Origin: Halorhabdus sp. BNX81
Lineage (GTDB): Archaea; Halobacteriota; Halobacteria; Halobacteriales; Haloarculaceae
DNA length: 64,000 bases
NCBI RefSeq assembly: GCF_029229925.1
Contig: NZ_CP107254.1
Coordinates: 2,480,001-2,544,000, forward strand
Reading direction: 5' to 3'
In this document: positions 3,098 to 61,633 of the stretch, in pieces
Layout: each line of letters opens with the position of its first letter
Position numbering within the stretch: the stretch's first letter is position 1
Program-made: the position numbers and the translations under genes
The notes under the pieces: generated by a model
Told to the model about the DNA's origin: nothing
What the model saw: only the letters and a program-made list of their open reading frames with translations
Database searches by the model: none

Positions 3098-3451
3098 TTA
3101 CTGGAGTTCGTCGACGAGCGCCGTGACCGCTTCGTCGACGATACCGCTCTCCAGACGGCCCTGCCAGAAGTCGATGTCCTCACTGTCGATCGATTGGACG
3201 CCCCACGGGACGATCCGACTCGTCTCCGGTGTCCCGCCACGAATCCAACTGTCCTCGGGGATCTCGATAAGTCCGTCCAGCCAGGATTTCGTGGTCAGCG
3301 TCACCGCGATGTACTGCTCGCCGTGGAACGGCCGTCCCTCGTGATTGGAGAGAACGAGCCACGGACGAGCAGCTTCGTCGCCCTTGAACGGATCGTCACC
3401 GAAGACGACGTCGCCCCGCTCGAAGATCGGGGCGGCTTCCTTATCAGTCAC
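3098..3451 (-). CDS. PemK/MazF-family toxin
   Basis: Probable endoribonuclease toxin of 117 residues. It opens with IFERGDVVFGDDPFKG and continues RPWLVLSNHEGRPFHGEQYIAVTLTT, which is the SH3-like MazF barrel with its RPxLVLS strand. The start is taken as the GTG at 3451, which overlaps the TGA of the upstream winged-helix gene (GTGA), so the two are translationally coupled. A longer reading frame from 3502 would overlap the partner by 54 nt and adds only low-complexity residues. RNase activity is inferred from the family. Confidence 0.75.
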   Translation of the reverse strand: MTDKEAAPIFERGDVVFGDDPFKGDEAARPWLVLSNHEGRPFHGEQYIAVTLTTKSWLDGLIEIPEDSWIRGGTPETSRIVPWGVQSIDSEDIDFWQGRLESGIVDEAVTALVDELQ

Positions 3452-3819
3452 TGCTCGCTCTCCGTGCTCGGATGGGATTCGCTGGGGGCGTGCTCGCGCC
3501 ATGCATCCTTCTCCTCCGCACCGAATTGCTCGTTGAACAGGGCAGTCGCTCGCTCGTAGCCACTGTACCCGTCAAGTCGATCGGCATCGTCGGTCACCGC
3601 CCAGTACGTCGCCTTGTGTTCGACGAGATCGCGGTCCTTCAATCGCGACAGCGCAGTGCTGACTGCGCCTTTTTCGATCCCCGTTTGAGAAGCGATCTCC
3701 TGGGCCTCGAACGCACGGTCCTCGTGCGCAGCGAGGAATCCCAAGACCTGATCGGGGGCGGAGAGCCCCTCGAGTTCCTCCTCGCGTGTGTTCTCGAAGG
3801 TTTCCCGATCGATGGACAT
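3448..3819 (-). CDS. Winged-helix (MarR-like) regulator, probable antitoxin of the MazF-type toxin
   Basis: A 123-residue protein with a compact winged helix at about residues 20-80 (FEAQEIASQTGIEKGAVSTALSRLKDRDLVEHKATYWAV), followed by an acidic, probably flexible tail. The final codons overlap the toxin start by 4 nt, the usual antitoxin-first order. Classical MazE antitoxins are AbrB- or RHH-type, so a winged helix here is a less common pairing. The C-terminal tail (YERATALFNEQF and onward) is the likely toxin-binding part. The antitoxin role is inferred from position. Confidence 0.68.
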   Translation of the reverse strand: MSIDRETFENTREEELEGLSAPDQVLGFLAAHEDRAFEAQEIASQTGIEKGAVSTALSRLKDRDLVEHKATYWAVTDDADRLDGYSGYERATALFNEQFGAEEKDAWREHAPSESHPSTESEQ

Positions 3820-3915: not shown

Positions 3916-3984
3916 TTCAGGTCGATTGCCGGCCCGTGGCGGTCGGTATGGCGGAACGAGCCGAGGACATCGAGTTCGTCGGAT
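3916..3984 (-). pseudogene. Fragment of a zinc-dependent alcohol dehydrogenase gene
   Basis: On the minus strand about 22 codons read DELDVLGSFRHTDRHGPAIDL. This closely matches residues NELDVLGSFRDANRYGPAIDL of the intact dehydrogenase about 1 kb to the right. Neither flank continues the similarity, so this is a remnant of a duplicated or replaced MDR dehydrogenase gene. It sits between two toxin-antitoxin loci in a non-coding patch. Confidence 0.6.
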
Positions 3985-4032: not shown

Positions 4033-4357
4033 CTACAGATACTGAATCGATTGATCGTCGTCAGAGCGGTGTTGTAAGTGCTCGTCGACGACTTTCACCA
4101 CGTCTCCGATCTGTCGTCCAGCCTGTCTGACGTAAATTATTCCAGTGTGCTCCAGTCCTTCGCCCTTGACGAGTGAGAGAAAGTCGTCGTCGAAAGTCAA
4201 CAGGAGCCAGTCGTTCTCGACGGCGTATCGCAGTTGTTCACGGTCAGGTTCACCGAGCGTTCCCTTCTCTCGCGGTATGGATCGTCCAGCCACGCCGGCG
4301 AAGTCCATCAGCGACGGGGATCCACATGCTCTCGTCACAGTACACCGATCGGGTCAT
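4033..4357 (-). pseudogene. DUF5615 (PIN-like) toxin, frameshifted
   Basis: From ATG at 4357 the frame encodes MTRSVYCDESMWIPVADGLR and GWTIHTAREG, then hits a stop after three more codons. The next frame carries the rest of the family: GTLGEPDREQLRYAVEND, LLLTFDDDFLSL and GIIYVRQ to 4033. The break lies near 4258-4270; one extra G (or loss of two bases) separates the frames. The conserved acidic residues of both halves are present, so the lesion looks recent. The ATG overlaps the TGA of the DUF433 gene (ATGA), preserving the antitoxin-toxin coupling. Confidence 0.7.
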
Positions 4358-4584
4358 GCCGGGGTCGGCTCCGAGGACGGCGATCGGAAGTCCTCGATGT
4401 GGTCGTAATAGTACGCCAGCGCTCGGTGGACGTCCGCGAGCGTGAGATCGGGATACAGTTGCGTGATCTCGTCCGGATCGTAGCCGCTGTGTTCGTACGC
4501 CGAGGCGATATCCTTCACCCGGATCCCTGTTCCCTCGACCGTCGGCGTGCCATCACTGTGGTCGGGGTCTCGAACGATTCCCAT
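4354..4584 (-). CDS. DUF433 family antitoxin
   Basis: A 76-residue protein beginning MGIVRDPDHSDGTPTVEGTG, then IRVKDIASAYEHSGYDPDEI and YPDLTLADVHRALAYYYDH, the classic DUF433 helix-turn-helix layout. DUF433 proteins are normally paired with DUF5615 PIN-like toxins, which is what follows here with an ATGA overlap. The partner is frameshifted, so this antitoxin may now be an orphan. A longer frame upstream (to 4683) is basic and unlike the family, so it was not used. Confidence 0.75.
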   Translation of the reverse strand: MGIVRDPDHSDGTPTVEGTGIRVKDIASAYEHSGYDPDEITQLYPDLTLADVHRALAYYYDHIEDFRSPSSEPTPA

Positions 4585-4712
4585 ACTGACTCTTTGGACG
4601 CTCTGCAACTTCAACTTGCGGTCGCATGGAGTCGCTGACCAGAAGTATGCTGATCCAGTTTTCGAGCTCGTCACTGGTGGCAAGCCCGGTTCTGCTCGTC
4701 AACAGCAGCCTA

Positions 4713-5747
4713 CTACTCCCCGATCGAGATCATGCCCTTGATCGCGTCGTCGTCATCGTGGGCGCGCTCGAAGGCTTCCCTGACGTTGGCAAGCGGTTCG
4801 GTGAAGTCGGCGATCCACTCGATCTCGGCGGCACCCTCGGCCAGCAGGTCGATCGCCGGGCCATAGCGGTTGGCGTCCCGGAACGAACCCAGCACGTCGA
4901 GTTCGTTGGTGATGATCTCTAAGGCGTCGACCTCCACCGTCGCCTCGTCGGCCAGGCCGATCATGACGACCGTGCCGCCGCGACGGGCCGCGTCGATCAG
5001 CGCCTCGACGTCGGGTTCTGAGTCGGTCGCCTCGAAGACCACGTCGGCACCCCGGCCGTCGGTGTATTCCTCGACGGTCGCGGCGAAGTCGCCCTCGCGG
5101 ACGTTGACCGTTGCGTCCGCGCCGTGTTCTTCGGCGCGTTCGAGTTTGCTGTCGACGATGTCGCCGACGATGATATCGGTCGCGCCCGCCGCCCTGGCAG
5201 CCTCCATCGTGACCGAGCCGACGGTCCCGCCGCCCAGGATCGCGACGGTGTCGCCGTGGCCGACGCTCCCCCGGCGGGTCGCGTGGAGGCCGACCGCGAA
5301 GGGTTCACACAGCGCGCCCTCGACCTGGGAGACGCTGTCGGGGAGAACGTGGGCGAGGTTCGCCGGCCAAGCGACGTACTCCGCGAACGCGCCGTCAAAG
5401 GGCGGCGTGGCCATGAAGTCGACGTTCGGACAGAGGTTGTACTCCCCGCGGCGACAGTGCTCGCACGTGCCACAGACGATGCCCGGTTCGAGTGCGACGC
5501 GGTCGCCGACGTCGATTCCCTCGACGTCGTCGCCGACCGCGGCAATGACGCCCGCGCTCTCGTGGCCAAGCAGGAGCGGGTCCTCGACGACGTAGTCGCC
5601 GATCCTGCCGTGCTCCCAGTAGTGGACGTCGGACTTGCAGATGCCGACGTCGGTCATCTCGACGAGCACCTCGTCGCTCGCCGGCGTCGGTCGCTCGCGC
5701 TCCTCGAACTCGAACTCGAGATCTTCAGTGAGGACTGCCGTCTGCAT
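4713..5747 (-). CDS. Zinc-dependent medium-chain alcohol/polyol dehydrogenase
   Basis: MDR-superfamily NAD(P)-dependent dehydrogenase of 344 residues. Catalytic zinc ligands lie in VGICKSDVHYW and GHESAGV. The structural zinc lobe is CGTCEHCRRGEYNLCPN. The Rossmann glycine motif is AILGGGTVGSVTMEAARAAG. Overall it most resembles sorbitol/xylitol dehydrogenases, but the substrate cannot be read from sequence. ATG at 5747 follows a TATA-like box by about 25 nt. A longer frame from 5783 would start inside the promoter. Confidence 0.85.
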   Translation of the reverse strand: MQTAVLTEDLEFEFEERERPTPASDEVLVEMTDVGICKSDVHYWEHGRIGDYVVEDPLLLGHESAGVIAAVGDDVEGIDVGDRVALEPGIVCGTCEHCRRGEYNLCPNVDFMATPPFDGAFAEYVAWPANLAHVLPDSVSQVEGALCEPFAVGLHATRRGSVGHGDTVAILGGGTVGSVTMEAARAAGATDIIVGDIVDSKLERAEEHGADATVNVREGDFAATVEEYTDGRGADVVFEATDSEPDVEALIDAARRGGTVVMIGLADEATVEVDALEIITNELDVLGSFRDANRYGPAIDLLAEGAAEIEWIADFTEPLANVREAFERAHDDDDAIKGMISIGE

Positions 5748-5769
5748 GGCCCGAGATTGCTGGGCCAGC

Positions 5770-5779
5770 GGTATATAAC
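5770..5779 (-). promoter_or_regulatory. TATA box of the zinc dehydrogenase gene
   Basis: Minus-strand GGTTATATAC ends about 23 nt before the ATG at 5747, consistent with a leaderless or near-leaderless transcript. It also argues against the longer upstream start. Confidence 0.5.
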
Positions 5780-5907
5780 CCACAGACTACGATCGAACAG
5801 GTCACTCGAAGTGTCGTTCGTTCCGATGAACGCCGTACCCTCCGGGATCCGGGCTGCTCGCTTCGCCATCTCGTAATCCCTATGGTCGCCGGTGGAATAC
5901 CGTGGGT

Positions 5908-55845: not shown

Positions 55846-57942
55846 GTGTTCCAGCAGGTCACGCAGGTCGATACGCTGTTCCTCCACGAGGACGGCGAGG
55901 ACTTCCAGGTGGTCGTCCAGCGCGACGGCGAGCGCGTCCTCGGCGGTCGCCTGGAGGTCAAAGAGACCGAGGCAGGTCCCCGACCCGCCCGCCTCCGGGT
56001 CGAGCGAGGGAGCCAGGAGGACCTCCGCAGCCCCGACCAGTTCGTCGAACTCGCCCGCCGGGCGGGTCGGATCCGGGTTTCCGAGCAGACCTCGCCCCGG
56101 GGTCGCCGCGTCGTCCGCGAGTTACTCGACGCTTACCAGCTCGAGGCGAAGGTGGTTCGGACCTGCCGGTACTGTGCGTCGGCCGGCAAATACTCGCCGA
56201 TCACGAGCGAGACGGCGATCGACGCCGACGGCGAGGACATCTGCCCGTCGTGTGCGATCACGGAACTCGAACGCGAACTCGCCTACCACGGCGACGTAAC
56301 CGGGACGGCCCGCGATCGACTTGAAGAACTCTTATTGGACGTCCAGGACCTCGAACGCATCGTCAATCTCCTCTCGGGCGAACTCGACCCGGAACTCACG
56401 AAGTTCGACGAGATCAGCGCCACGGTCGAGGACATCGACCTAGTGCCGACGGACTCGCTGTCGTTGCACCCCGGCATGCAGCAGAAACTTGAGGGGCAGT
56501 TCGACGAACTCCTGCCCGTCCAGAGCCTCGCCGTCGAGAACGGCGTTCTCGAAGGCCAGGACCAACTCGTGGTCTCGGCGACCGCAACGGGGAAGACGCT
56601 GATCGGCGAGATGGCCGGCATCGACCGCGTGCTCAACGGCAAGGGGAAGATGCTGTTTCTGGTCCCGCTGGTGGCGCTGGCAAACCAGAAGTACCAGGAC
56701 TTCCAAGAAGAGTACGGCGACATCGCCGACGTGAGCCTCCGGGTTGGATCGAGCCGAATCCGCGGGGACGGCGGTGGGTTCGATCCCAGCGCCGACATCA
56801 TCGTCGGTACCTACGAAGGGATCGACCACGCCCTCAGAGTGGGTCACGACCTCGGTGACATCGGGACGGTCGTCATCGACGAGGTCCACACCCTCGGCGA
56901 GGGCGAACGCGGCCATCGCCTCGACGGCCTCATCTCGCGGCTGAAATACTACTGTGAGGAAGGCGGGCGGACGGCGGCCCGCTCGAACCGCTCCGGCGGG
57001 GGCGGATCGAGTTCGAGCGCCCAGTCGGGCGACACCCAGTGGATCTACCTTTCGGCGACGGTGGGGAATCCAGGGTCGCTCGCGGACTCGCTGTCGGCAA
57101 AACTCATCGAGTTCGAGGAGCGCCCCGTTCCGATCGAGCGCCACGTCACCTTCGCCGACGACTACGAGAAGGTCGACATCGAGAACAAACTCGTCAAGCG
57201 GGCTTTCGACACGAAATCCTCGAAGGGGTATCGCGGCCAGACGATCATCTTCACCAACTCCCGGCGGCGGTGTCACGAGATCTCCCGCCGCTTGGAGTAC
57301 TCCTCGGCCCCCTACCACGCCGGCCTGGACAACAAGCGCCGCGGCGAGGTCGAGACCATGTTCGCCGATCAGGAACTGTCCGCGGTCGTGACAACGGCAG
57401 CGCTGGCAGCGGGTGTCGACTTCCCGGCCTCGCAAGTCATCTTCGACTCCCTGGCGATGGGGATCGAGTGGCTCACCGTCCAGGAGTTCTCCCAGATGCT
57501 CGGCCGGGCGGGTCGCCCCGATTACCACGACAAGGGCACGGTGTATCTGCTGGTTGAGCCCGACGGCGTCTATCACAACAGCCAGGAGATGACCGAGGAC
57601 GAGGTCGCGTTCAAGCTGCTGAAAGGCGAGATGGAACCCGTGAGGAGCCTGTACGACGAGAGCGCGGCCGTCGAGGAGACGCTGGCGAACGTCGTCGTCG
57701 GCGGGAGCGCCGCCAAGCGCCTCAACGACCGGATGCTCGGGGAGGTGCCCACGAAGCACGCCATCGGCAAGCTCCTCGAGTACGAGTTCATCGACGGCCT
57801 GGAGCCGACGCCGCTGGGTCGGGCCGTGGCGCGGCACTTCCTCTCGCCCGACCGGGCGTTCCTGTTGCTCGACGGGATTCGCAAGGGGAGGGATCCGTTC
57901 GACATCGTGGCGGAGGTAGAATTCGCCGACGAGGAGCTGTGA
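55846..57942 (+). CDS. DEAD/DEAH-box helicase of the haloarchaeal DUF5814 type
   Basis: A 698-residue SF2 helicase. A unique N-terminal domain has a four-cysteine zinc site (CRYCASAGKYSP and CPSC). Then come Q-motif LLPVQSLAVENGVLEGQ, Walker A VVSATATGKTLIGEMAG, DEVH box VVIDEVHTLGEGERG, motif III YLSATVG and motif VI QMLGRAGRPDYHD. It starts at GTG 55846. Its last 87 bp are repeated downstream, marking it as an integration target. The stop is at 57942. Confidence 0.9.
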   Translation: MFQQVTQVDTLFLHEDGEDFQVVVQRDGERVLGGRLEVKETEAGPRPARLRVERGSQEDLRSPDQFVELARRAGRIRVSEQTSPRGRRVVRELLDAYQLEAKVVRTCRYCASAGKYSPITSETAIDADGEDICPSCAITELERELAYHGDVTGTARDRLEELLLDVQDLERIVNLLSGELDPELTKFDEISATVEDIDLVPTDSLSLHPGMQQKLEGQFDELLPVQSLAVENGVLEGQDQLVVSATATGKTLIGEMAGIDRVLNGKGKMLFLVPLVALANQKYQDFQEEYGDIADVSLRVGSSRIRGDGGGFDPSADIIVGTYEGIDHALRVGHDLGDIGTVVIDEVHTLGEGERGHRLDGLISRLKYYCEEGGRTAARSNRSGGGGSSSSAQSGDTQWIYLSATVGNPGSLADSLSAKLIEFEERPVPIERHVTFADDYEKVDIENKLVKRAFDTKSSKGYRGQTIIFTNSRRRCHEISRRLEYSSAPYHAGLDNKRRGEVETMFADQELSAVVTTAALAAGVDFPASQVIFDSLAMGIEWLTVQEFSQMLGRAGRPDYHDKGTVYLLVEPDGVYHNSQEMTEDEVAFKLLKGEMEPVRSLYDESAAVEETLANVVVGGSAAKRLNDRMLGEVPTKHAIGKLLEYEFIDGLEPTPLGRAVARHFLSPDRAFLLLDGIRKGRDPFDIVAEVEFADEEL
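57856..57942 (+). repeat. Helicase 3'-end repeat, copy 1 (functional end)
   Basis: The 87 bp encode AFLLLDGIRKGRDPFDIVAE and then VEFADEEL and the stop. The first 38 bp are identical to the copy at 59205-59291; remaining differences are mostly synonymous. Confidence 0.85.
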
Positions 57943-58321
57943 GAGTGAATTCACAACAGTGCCACTGCCAGTTTTCGAGGGTTTGTGATGCCGAACGTCG
58001 ATACTCTCCTGCGAAACCTTCGAAACAAAAGCCTCAAATCCGAACCGCTAATCGTGTGCAAAGCGAAGCCGTGAAGGAACAATGGAGGTCACAACCGGCC
58101 GAATCGTGTAATTTACACGGTTCATTCTTCATATTAGAAATGAAGAGATTTGACGAAGCAAGCTAGAGTGTGGGTGAAGGCTGATGTCTATTATCTGGAT
58201 ATGGTCGAAAAGTATTGTTGGATTTTAACGTCATATAGTCTTTACCTTCAATTTGAATACTCATACAGTTATATATGATATAAAAGAATTTAATAGACAG
58301 GGATGAGTTAACCAATCTGCA
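57943..58321. other. Left part of an AT-rich insert
   Basis: GC falls sharply after the helicase stop. A perfect CGTGTAA-T-TTACACG dyad lies at 58105-58119. Sequence from about 58140 is over 60% AT, with GAATTTAATAG near 58287 as the likely TATA box of the orphan gene. No protein gene is recognised. Confidence 0.45.
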
Positions 58322-58999
58322 ATGTCGGATGGCAAGAACAAGGCGACTACGTCTAGACGAGAAGTCATCAAAAAGATCGGTTTGGGCGGAGCAACCTTTT
58401 TGGGAGGAGCGACAGCTACAACCGGAGCGGCGGCACTTGAAAGTGACTGGACTTCCGGAACTGTAGTAGTGACATCTGATAGCGGCGAATGGGACTATCA
58501 GATTACGATGGCAGACCCGCATAATAATAAACCGCCCATTCAAAAAGGTGACAATACCGAAAGCGACGATAACATTAGTGGTCCAGACTCCTCTGGGGAA
58601 GACAAACTAAAGAACTGGGCTACGGGAACAATAAAGGAAGTTGATAGCGACGAATATCACTTCCCCGATACGGTGATGTCGATAATTGTTTCATTGAAGG
58701 GGACTAGTCGCGGGGTGATTTTCAAGCAAAACAGTGGAGCCGGAGGTGGTAACGTGAAAGTAACCGGCAGTGACCCTTGCGGTATGGATTACGAATTCAC
58801 GGTAGCTGGAGATATTATTGAACCCCACTACTTTATTGAAGACAACGACAATGTTTGGGGCAACCAAGTGTATGGCCATATGGAGGACGGTGGCGAGGAT
58901 AGATATGGTGCGCTGGGTTATATCCATGAAGTAGAGGTCTCTGATCCACAAACAAACATGTCTGGAGGGATTCAGGTTACATTTGATCCTGACAATTGA
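58322..58999 (+). CDS. Tat-exported orphan protein in AT-rich island
   Basis: A 225-residue protein with Tat signal SRREVIKKIGLGGATFLGGA (residues 11-30). The mature part is acidic, Gly/Asp-rich and beta-predicted, with one Cys (SDPCGMDYEF). No family is recognised. Codon use is much more AT-rich than in the rest of the window (AAT, GAT and AAA are common), indicating transfer from a lower-GC source. It is flanked by copies of the helicase 3' end. Confidence 0.7.
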   Translation: MSDGKNKATTSRREVIKKIGLGGATFLGGATATTGAAALESDWTSGTVVVTSDSGEWDYQITMADPHNNKPPIQKGDNTESDDNISGPDSSGEDKLKNWATGTIKEVDSDEYHFPDTVMSIIVSLKGTSRGVIFKQNSGAGGGNVKVTGSDPCGMDYEFTVAGDIIEPHYFIEDNDNVWGNQVYGHMEDGGEDRYGALGYIHEVEVSDPQTNMSGGIQVTFDPDN

Positions 59000-59204
59000 T
59001 ATTTAAATTAATGTATTTTTAACAAACTATCCTTATCCCCAACGGTTTATCTGTGAGTATCTTTTAAAAACAGATCTGACACAACACATTCTATATCGTG
59101 TCACATCGCGCGTCAGCTCAAGATATTTAATTAACTCCTTAGAGATCGCCGAGAAGCTCGACACTATCGAGTGAGGCCAAAATGTGAGATCAACCTTTGT
59201 GTAG
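59000..59204. other. Right part of the AT-rich insert
   Basis: An AT-rich stretch with several TTTAA-type strings. A short in-frame piece (EIAEKLDTIE then stop) near 59140 could be the tail of a lost gene. No complete gene is seen. Confidence 0.35.
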
Positions 59205-59291
59205 GCGTTCCTGTTGCTCGACGGGATTCGCAAGGGGAGGGACCCTTTCGACATCGTGGCGGAAGTCGAGTTCGCCGACGAGGAATTGTGA
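59205..59291 (+). repeat. Helicase 3'-end repeat, copy 2
   Basis: The same 87-bp length as copy 1, and it ends in an in-frame TGA. It encodes the identical residues AFLLLDGIRKGRDPFDIVAE and VEFADEEL with only synonymous changes, although nothing translates it. GC rises again from here. Confidence 0.85.
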
Positions 59292-59309
59292 CCGGACGAA
59301 AAGCCGGTC

Positions 59310-59759
59310 TCAAAGAGCGTTAACGTCATCGAGATATTCGGAGACCGCCACGAGGAAGTCTCGATACCGACCCAGGTCCTGAAGGGCGTCGTAGACGATG
59401 TCCTGATCGAGGACATCACCGTACTCGTGAGCCAACACGTTCCGGAACATGGCAGCTTCCGCCATCGACTCGGCCGTCTCCTTGGACAGGACGCCGACCT
59501 CGCCGAGTCGCCGCATCGTGGCGGCGTTCGATCCGGGTGAGTGCCCGTCGATGTCACGGACCAGCATTCGGCCGATATCGATGCAGGCCTGGCTTGCCTT
59601 CTCGAAGCGACGTTCGACGACGTCACGGGTCTCCGGTTGCTCGCGGAACGACTCCCGGGAGACCGACTGGTTCGCAGCGAGAACCTCGAGACACGTCTGG
59701 ACGTATTCGGCCTTTTCGACGATGGTCTCCAACCGTTCCGGGTCGTGTGAATTCGACAC
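59310..59759 (-). CDS. hepT: HEPN-domain toxin HepT (DUF86)
   Basis: A 149-residue HEPN RNase. Four long helices are predicted, and the active-site motif is FRNVLAHEYGDV (Rx4H with the following Tyr, which MntA AMPylates in characterised pairs). It starts with GTG at 59759, 3 nt after the MntA stop. Antitoxin-first order and the pairing with an MNT nucleotidyltransferase define a type VII toxin-antitoxin system. Confidence 0.88.
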   Translation of the reverse strand: MSNSHDPERLETIVEKAEYVQTCLEVLAANQSVSRESFREQPETRDVVERRFEKASQACIDIGRMLVRDIDGHSPGSNAATMRRLGEVGVLSKETAESMAEAAMFRNVLAHEYGDVLDQDIVYDALQDLGRYRDFLVAVSEYLDDVNAL

Positions 59760-59762
59760 GCC

Positions 59763-60233
59763 TCATCCACCCGTCTCGACGAGCTGGTTGATATTCTCGA
59801 TCGTCCTGTCGAAGCGTTCGCGCAACGCTTCTTCGGACCGTCGTTCGTCGGCGCGCTCGTCGAAGCGTTCCCGTAATCGTTCGATCCGATCGTCAGTGCC
59901 GACGAGAACCGTTCCATGGGCGAATGCCGCCCGACCGACGCGTGGATCGATGTCGGAGACGAGCGCCAGGTCGAGGTCGTTGCGGTCCAGCGCGACCGAA
60001 AGGTCCGTCAGAAGCGAAAGGAACGCATCCGTCCGCTCCTTGACAGCCGATTCGAATTCGACGACGATATCGACGTCACTGGTCGGGTCGATCCGACCAG
60101 TCACCTGTGAACCGAACAGCACAGCCACCCGGACTGGATGGTCGGCCAGCACCTCGCGGAGCCGATCCGGCTCAACCGGTCCGGGATCTGTCGGACGGCG
60201 AGGACCATCGCCCTGGTCGAATCGGTCGCTCAT
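59763..60233 (-). CDS. mntA: MNT nucleotidyltransferase antitoxin MntA
   Basis: A 156-residue minimal nucleotidyltransferase. The catalytic motif is LFGSQVTGRIDPTSDVDIVV (GSx10DxD). An additional Asp is in RNDLDLALVSDI. It ends in a long Arg/Glu-rich helix (RIERLRERFDERADERRSEE). In known systems MntA inactivates HepT by AMPylating the tyrosine beside the RNase motif. ATG at 60233 is chosen; the open frame extends far upstream but in arginine-rich non-coding sequence. Confidence 0.87.
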   Translation of the reverse strand: MSDRFDQGDGPRRPTDPGPVEPDRLREVLADHPVRVAVLFGSQVTGRIDPTSDVDIVVEFESAVKERTDAFLSLLTDLSVALDRNDLDLALVSDIDPRVGRAAFAHGTVLVGTDDRIERLRERFDERADERRSEEALRERFDRTIENINQLVETGG

Positions 60234-60331
60234 CGTCGTAATATTGGTCAGCCGAGGACAAACATATTGTGGTGGCCGGGAGGTATCGTGGTGGCTACGG
60301 TCTGACGCCACTGGGTTAGCGCCCGCACTGA

Positions 60332-60396
60332 GGGCATCCGCAAGGAAAGAGACCCCTTCGACATCGTCGCTGAGGTCGAACTCGCCGACGAGGATT
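60332..60396 (+). repeat. Helicase 3'-end repeat, copy 3 (diverged)
   Basis: Encodes GIRKERDPFDIVAEVELADE, matching the helicase tail GIRKGRDPFDIVAEVEFADE except for two residues, with more synonymous changes than copy 2. It lacks the stop at the expected place and the first 22 bp. It closes the HepT/MntA segment on the right. Confidence 0.75.
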
Positions 60397-60499: not shown

Positions 60500-61633
60500 A
60501 TGCGAAACCGAACACGGATCTGTGCCGTCCTCGGGGTCCTCGTCGGGCTGAACGTCCTGTTCGTGGTTGCGATCCTCTGGGCCTACGGCGTGCTGTTGCC
60601 TGGGGTCGTCGCCGGGACGATCGTCTTCGCACGTCACGGGACTGTGAGTTTCGACCTCCTCCAGCTTCCCGTCTCCTGGCAGACAGTCGCCGTCCTCGTC
60701 GCCGGCTTCCTCGGCGCACAGCTGTACTACGGCTACAAGCGCGTCCTCGCACACACGCAGCGCGGGCGCGAAGACGCGGATCATGCTGTCGCGGGGATCG
60801 TCCGCCGGCTGGCGATGACAGCGGACATCCCCGAACCCGGCGTCCGGGTCGTCGACGACGACGAACCGAGCTGTTATACGGTCGGCCGGTTCACCGACGC
60901 GACGATCGTCGTGACCACCGGATTGATCGAGCGACTCGACGCCGACGAACTCGCGGCCGTCCTTGCCCACGAGGTGGCACACGTCGGAAACCGGGACGTG
61001 ACGCTGATGACCGTCACGACGCTGTTTCTGGAGATCGCCGAGCGTGCCTATCGGGCGGCGCGACTCGCACGCCGGGCGATCCAGTCGCCCGGTGACGTCT
61101 CCGTCCGTGGGAAGGTCGCCCTCTACTGGTTCCTCCCGCTGGTCGCGCTGACGTACGTCTTCGTCGCGCCGATCCTCTGGCTCTTCCCGACCGTCGCCGA
61201 CTGGGCGACCCGAACGCTCTCGCACGCCCGAGAGTACGCCGCCGACGCCGCGGCTGCCCACATCACCGGCCGACCGCTGGCGCTGGCGACCGCGCTCTCC
61301 TCGCTGACGGAATCGGGTCACCACACGCCCGAGAAGGACCTGCGGACGACCACGATGCAGGCGCTGTCGATCGTGCCGTCGCCGCTGATCGACAGTCGAG
61401 CGGTTCGCTCAGTCCCGACCCCTGCCCGACCGCCGGACGACCACGAGCGTCGCGACCGCTTGCGGGCGTGGCTCGACGGCGAAACGCCGGGGGTCGAAAC
61501 GGCGGGTGAGCAACGCAGCGGCGCAACGGGACACACCCACCCGCCGGTCGGCGAACGGATCCGCCGGTTGCAGCAACTGGCCGCGGCGGCCGAACGAGAT
61601 GGTGGAACGGCCGAACGGGAGGGAAAGCGATGA
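60500..61633 (+). CDS. HtpX-like M48 zinc metalloprotease
   Basis: A 377-residue membrane protease. Two N-terminal helices (ICAVLGVLVGLNVLFVVAIL and WQTVAVLVAGFLGAQL) precede the zinc motif LAAVLAHEVAHVGNRDVTLM (HEVAH). Two more helices and the third ligand (SHAREYAADAAAAHITGRPL) follow. It probably degrades misfolded membrane proteins. A GATAAAAACTTTTG box lies about 40 nt upstream. It overlaps the DUF4129 gene by 4 nt (ATGA). Confidence 0.9.
   Translation: MRNRTRICAVLGVLVGLNVLFVVAILWAYGVLLPGVVAGTIVFARHGTVSFDLLQLPVSWQTVAVLVAGFLGAQLYYGYKRVLAHTQRGREDADHAVAGIVRRLAMTADIPEPGVRVVDDDEPSCYTVGRFTDATIVVTTGLIERLDADELAAVLAHEVAHVGNRDVTLMTVTTLFLEIAERAYRAARLARRAIQSPGDVSVRGKVALYWFLPLVALTYVFVAPILWLFPTVADWATRTLSHAREYAADAAAAHITGRPLALATALSSLTESGHHTPEKDLRTTTMQALSIVPSPLIDSRAVRSVPTPARPPDDHERRDRLRAWLDGETPGVETAGEQRSGATGHTHPPVGERIRRLQQLAAAAERDGGTAEREGKR

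Follow-up and report, generated by a model that had tools for sequence, protein, structure and literature searches.

How the end of one protein-coding gene comes to lie three times in direct succession is the question raised by a DEAD/DEAH-box helicase gene in Halorhabdus sp. BNX81. The window analysed here comprises 64,000 nucleotides of contig NZ_CP107254.1 (positions 2,480,001 to 2,544,000, forward strand), from a 2.83-Mb genome in a single contig (G000) whose nearest named relatives are Halorhabdus. In window coordinates, the helicase gene (55846–57942, plus strand, 698 residues) terminates in the working copy of its 3' end at 57855–57942; a displaced second copy occupies 59204–59291 and a third, the oldest and degraded, 60330–60394, both on the plus strand. 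A search of the whole genome finds exactly these three copies, all between 57855 and 60394. We conclude that the helicase is one of many anchor genes whose 3' ends are used in this way, and not an attachment (att) site, and that such arrays probably form when donor DNA is joined to an anchor gene by homology and, at its far end, illegitimately.

Copies 1 and 2 are in direct orientation and 92% identical over 88 nt. All 28 residues translated from copy 2 are the same as in the helicase, so every DNA change in it is synonymous; the 7 differences all fall in the last 49 bp, and the first 39 bp, on the 5' side, match perfectly, a block that may represent an att-like core or have arisen by chance. 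Copy 3 is 82% identical over 65 nt; it may extend 5' to about 60300 and contain an internal deletion that H. salina shares. The M48 peptidase gene beyond it (60500–61633, plus strand) is the original downstream neighbour in this clade. A first-pass annotation, made from the sequence alone, had placed the three direct copies within 1–2 nt of these positions and had rightly described copy 3 as more diverged; its account of copy 2 as a stop-bearing end with almost only synonymous changes also holds, although the length is 88 and not 87 bp. None of the other helicase loci tested as controls, over distances of up to 10 kb, has a second gene end near the helicase.

Between copies 1 and 2 lies an AT-rich insert (57943–59203, no strand assigned), with a GC content of 0.42–0.46 against about 0.62–0.68 in the helicase. 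Its sole open reading frame (ORF; 58322–58999, plus strand) encodes a 225-residue orphan with a signal resembling those of the twin-arginine translocation (Tat) pathway; the protein has no Pfam match, but G043 encodes a relative at 29% identity and G000 contains a partial match at 37%. Viral contigs hold no match to this insert and plasmids a single 27% match, with none at the DNA level, on which grounds a viral or plasmid origin was rejected. Between copies 2 and 3, on the minus strand, are adjoining genes for HepT (59310–59759; HEPN, PF01934), with the R-X4-H-X-Y motif in the form RNVLAHEY, and for MntA (59763–60230), a minimal nucleotidyltransferase with Polbeta/NTP_transf_2 matches and the GS-X10-DXD motif. 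With both catalytic motifs in place, the pair at 59310–60230 is predicted to be an MntA/HepT toxin-antitoxin (TA) system, HepT being the toxin and MntA the antitoxin. In the known system toxicity is neutralised by AMPylation (PMC7641770); the gene pair and both motifs are the same here. A conserved region upstream of mntA (60231–60275, minus strand), common to all four helicase-linked cassettes, is its likely promoter. Both cargoes were already recognised in the first-pass annotation, as was the lack of a visible integrase: no integrase or recombinase gene is present among the ORFs of the insert and the cassette. The cassette with copy 3, whose layout is common to G073 and H. salina (G070), is the older unit in the window, and by position the Tat insert with copy 2 is a later addition.

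Relatives supply singly occupied forms of the site and also the empty form, for which the first-pass annotation had proposed looking. In G072 the helicase stop is followed by 103 bp and then the M48 peptidase, with one end copy, and G073 has MntA/HepT only. H. salina has the order helicase, HepT, MntA and degraded end, followed by the gene that lies directly behind the helicase in G071, which thus represents the empty site for this cassette. In the H. salina locus (L116) hepT carries an in-frame TAG near residue 20 and MntA is intact; in this helicase-linked pair the toxin has decayed and the antitoxin has been retained. In G091, from another genus, helicase, HepT and MntA are followed by a second end of ~100 bp, and genus mates such as G093 are without the cassette. 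A small membrane-like ORF behind that second end (L121, ~+1100 to +1370) is followed by a 16-nt gene-end repeat and then DNA matching the helicase-downstream region of the genus mates; this segment is perhaps a second stacked insert. Cargo is not the same throughout, and no full-length paralogues account for the repeats.

The four helicase-linked HepT proteins are 70–99% identical to the query, and the next best in the order reach 61–62% or less. None of 40 other MntA/HepT cassettes examined sits at the helicase. Among the matches listed, just 4 of the genomes surveyed in the order carry extra helicase ends, and use of the site was not seen in ~390 other haloarchaeal genomes. When the search for second helicase-end matches was repeated on 58 genomes, the weak second matches lay mostly in long ORFs at distant loci and not beside the helicase, and duplication of a helicase paralogue was rejected for that reason.

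The most informative relative is G073, in which the helicase is followed by HepT (+20), MntA (+470), a degraded end (~+1045), the start of an SLC13 gene, a 280-bp helicase tail and the M48 gene (+1719). The SLC13 piece comprises the first ~60 codons of a transporter gene that in this family commonly lies next to the 3' end of the helicase gene. The tail is more similar to G072 (0.917) than to the helicase of G073 itself (0.886), and therefore represents the resident end, the present gene end being the newcomer. The fragment would be explained by a donor consisting of helicase, cassette and SLC13 whose DNA was broken within SLC13 before being fused to the resident helicase gene. At locus L119 an SLC13 5' fragment is seen at ~+1150 to +1340 from the helicase stop, and that genome also has an intact SLC13 copy at another place. 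Events also differ in where the duplicated end begins on its 5' side, which is -88 relative to the stop for the Tat insert, ~-100 in G091, perhaps ~-140 for the Halorhabdus MntA/HepT cassette and ~-283 in G073.

These features suggest the following sequence of events. A donor segment, consisting of the 3' part of an anchor gene and whatever sits downstream of it in a relative, would recombine homologously with the resident anchor gene, and its other end would be joined illegitimately to the resident gene 50–300 bp before the stop, where there may have been a double-strand break. What results would be an intact gene with a donor-type end, the cargo, a displaced resident end of variable length and the old neighbour; repetition would stack cargos, the old event here having brought MntA/HepT and the later one the Tat orphan. 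We infer a linear donor and a break-and-join route. Both homologous recombination and microhomology end joining operate in haloarchaea, the latter being known in Haloferax (PMC2700283, PMC7521656).

Comparable arrangements are found behind other genes of G000. An unbiased direct-repeat scan with default scoring covered 1.14 Mb of the 2.83 Mb; candidates were sorted by hand, many pairs being tandem paralogues that were set aside, and gene names lacking a Pfam match are our own reading of the sequence. The SRP54 gene has a duplicated 3' end around an orphan gene for a 106-residue membrane protein (G000:C1:363900-364760), and an XPD-like gene one around a lipoprotein orphan (G000:C1:2061927-2062806). 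Since these two inserts hold single small orphans, the cargo is not always a toxin-antitoxin pair. The 3' ends of a GTPBP-like gene, around an M48-like protein and an orphan, and of a gene followed by a PIN insert (143787-145023) are likewise duplicated. A second MntA/HepT pair sits between 56-bp duplicated ends of a chlorite-dismutase-like gene, with G072 again providing the empty site. Behind the chlorite-dismutase-like gene of H. salina (L322) is a geneless insert of ~100 bp flanked by a second gene-end copy; a GCGCGAGCG-type motif occurs both in it and in the insert that G068 has at this position (L321).

The clearest case for the mechanism is provided by the short-chain dehydrogenase/reductase (SDR) and glycerate kinase (GK) genes, behind both of which gene-end duplications bracket small inserts in G000. 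At this locus G072 has GK-TA1-SDR, G068 has GK-TA2 and G069–G071 have neither insert; G000 and G073 have GK-TA2-SDR'-GK'-TA1-SDR (G000:C1:2064602-2069058, L367), in which GK' is 93% identical to the GK end of G072. Two alternative insert alleles are fused here through one junction between pieces of unrelated genes, and both gene ends are duplicated. Inserts end in a truncated piece of another neighbourhood gene, a donor-side fragment, at two loci, SLC13 in G073 and SDR in G000, and at both loci one junction lies within the homologous gene and the other (SLC13'-helicase' in G073, SDR'-GK' in G000) joins unrelated sequences.

Bracketing repeats are not specific to the helicase. Forty other MntA/HepT loci were scanned for direct repeats with scores of at least 30 within ~500 bp on each side; 12 of them have such repeats, and reverse-complement controls score at most about 20. 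In uniform 0.9-kb flanks, bracketing repeats are found at 10/42 HepT, 4/30 PIN and 6/29 ParE loci, compared with 0/21 ordinary helicase ends and 0/9 SLC13 genes (0/30 core genes) and 8/700 random placements, several of which fall inside toxin-antitoxin loci. From the helicase-end and random controls, the pattern in the window is far above chance. Toxin-antitoxin loci as a whole (20/101) differ from random placements with a Fisher p of 2e-13, an enrichment measured against random placements, helicase ends and SLC13. The repeats, 73–100% identical, are place-specific and unrelated between most loci; orthologous loci have theirs in common, as do the two contigs of G114. Duplications of the 5' type are seen in other genomes (L293, L243). 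The over-representation of toxin-antitoxin pairs perhaps reflects addiction-based retention, in that repeat recombination losing the insert would remove the antitoxin; inserts between repeats would otherwise be readily lost, except where their loss is lethal.

Insertion with long target duplication has been described for restriction-modification genes (Nobusato et al. 2000; Furuta et al. 2010; as summarised in PMC3874152, PMC1643837, PMC3031569). It shares with our loci a small addiction-type module without its own recombinase, single copy in relatives, and long variable direct target repeats of the order of 100 bp as flanks. In the haloarchaea, too, we find long variable flanking repeats and an insert-free, single-copy relative, namely G072 and G071 for the helicase and G072 for the chlorite-dismutase-like gene. 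Our loci differ in that mostly the gene 3' end is duplicated, copies diverge at as many as one position in four, truncated fragments of other genes stand at two junctions, and inserts stack. The cargo consists of toxin-antitoxin pairs (MntA/HepT, PIN or DUF5615/DUF433) or small orphans and not of restriction-modification genes; the haloarchaeal inserts are therefore a variant of this class and not a member of it, an archaeal form rich in toxin-antitoxin pairs. In homology-facilitated illegitimate recombination, incoming linear DNA is joined at one end by homology and at the other illegitimately (PMC3240628). This process predicts both a variable displaced gene end and a truncated gene at the far junction, and its products equal what was named insertion with long target duplication. 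It was described in bacteria, in transformation or conjugation (PMC3240628), whereas here it would be deduced from archaeal genomes.

Several observations weigh against homologous joining at one end and illegitimate joining at the other. Among the clear anchors in G000, a hand-picked set in which the helicase is counted twice, 9 of 9 are duplicated at the 3' end and none at the 5' end (p 0.004), a bias that plain one-sided joining without selection does not predict. The donor allele of the Tat insert was not found, leaving its right junction unreadable. An att core would give just such a 39-bp identical 5' block as copies 1 and 2 possess, and the cassette tree fails to reject vertical descent (approximately unbiased (AU) test, p 0.125).

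The last point bears on an alternative in which a single ancient MntA/HepT insertion was inherited vertically and lost from some species by repeat recombination, with no recent mobility. The window and H. salina do have the same degraded outer end and the same apparent internal deletion. However, the helicase tree strongly groups the window with G073 (AU 0.998), whereas the cassette tree prefers the window with H. salina, a conflict that is suggestive and not significant. In addition, the outer ends bear lineage-typical 3' parts, G073 and the Tat insert require separate later events, and G091 has its own cassette at a site where its genus mates have none. We regard a single ancient insertion as unlikely. 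It is similarly doubtful that the strict 3' bias in G000 reflects a process dedicated to gene ends, such as DNA breakage where transcription stops or the trans action of an undescribed enzyme, which would make this a routine haloarchaeal form of gene capture with toxin-antitoxin pairs as lock-in hitch-hikers.

The first-pass annotation had proposed serial site-specific integration at the helicase 3' end, with a recombinase acting in trans or lost and each element bringing its own gene end. Serial insertion, the donor-like end next to each cargo, the different cargo between copies and the outward displacement of older ends are all borne out; site specificity is not. Elements of the staphylococcal cassette chromosome (SCC)-like or cis-mobilizable (CIME) kind, which occupy gene 3' ends by means of a recombinase and an att core that is short and fixed, likewise restore the gene end and stack at it, but neither recombinase nor fixed core was found here. 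The identical 39-bp block would suit an att site. The boundaries, however, change with each event, no other use of the site was seen in ~390 genomes, many unrelated genes are followed by the same architecture, each place having its own repeat, and precise integration would not yield truncated gene pieces. Integration at an att site was rejected on its variable boundaries, many target genes and missing recombinase, and we consider it improbable.

An undescribed transposition-like process that makes long target duplications, the cargo moving as a unit to new genes, was first proposed for restriction-modification genes (earlier reports summarised in PMC3874152 and PMC1643837) and would account for variable long duplications around addiction modules. 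Repeats as little as 73% identical are not fresh copies, and the attachment of cargo to truncated fragments of a second gene from the donor locus is better explained by allelic donor DNA than by transposition, which we judge quite improbable. If the helicase end had been duplicated locally in tandem and had then decayed, the cargo having an unrelated source, direct copies would lie near each other; this is very hard to credit when the gene end alone is duplicated, the cargo abuts the copies, no full-length paralogue is at the locus, and relatives have the same cassette between the ends or none.

Joining by homology at one end and illegitimately at the other, which we favour, gives these cassettes the look of a widespread, integrase-free route of gene acquisition in this archaeal group. 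The ways in which transposase-free toxin-antitoxin pairs and orphan genes pass from one chromosome to another are largely an open question, and the signature of a duplicated gene end, cargo and displaced older end, which is frequent and easily read, identifies such acquisitions in archaea. It gives their order and sometimes, at a junction, a truncated piece of another gene. Addiction modules may persist by preventing the loss of repeat-flanked inserts.

One further repeat in the window involves a dehydrogenase-like gene (4713–5783), a displaced piece of which (3918–3982, minus strand) is 78% identical to 4845–4909. The end of this 65-bp repeat lies 132 nt before the stop of the gene, and between its copies lies a toxin-antitoxin-like DUF5615/DUF433 pair (4033–4674, minus strand). 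Next to that pair, at 3098–3819, our reading of the sequence suggests a possible PemK-like toxin gene and a small gene resembling those for helix-turn-helix proteins.

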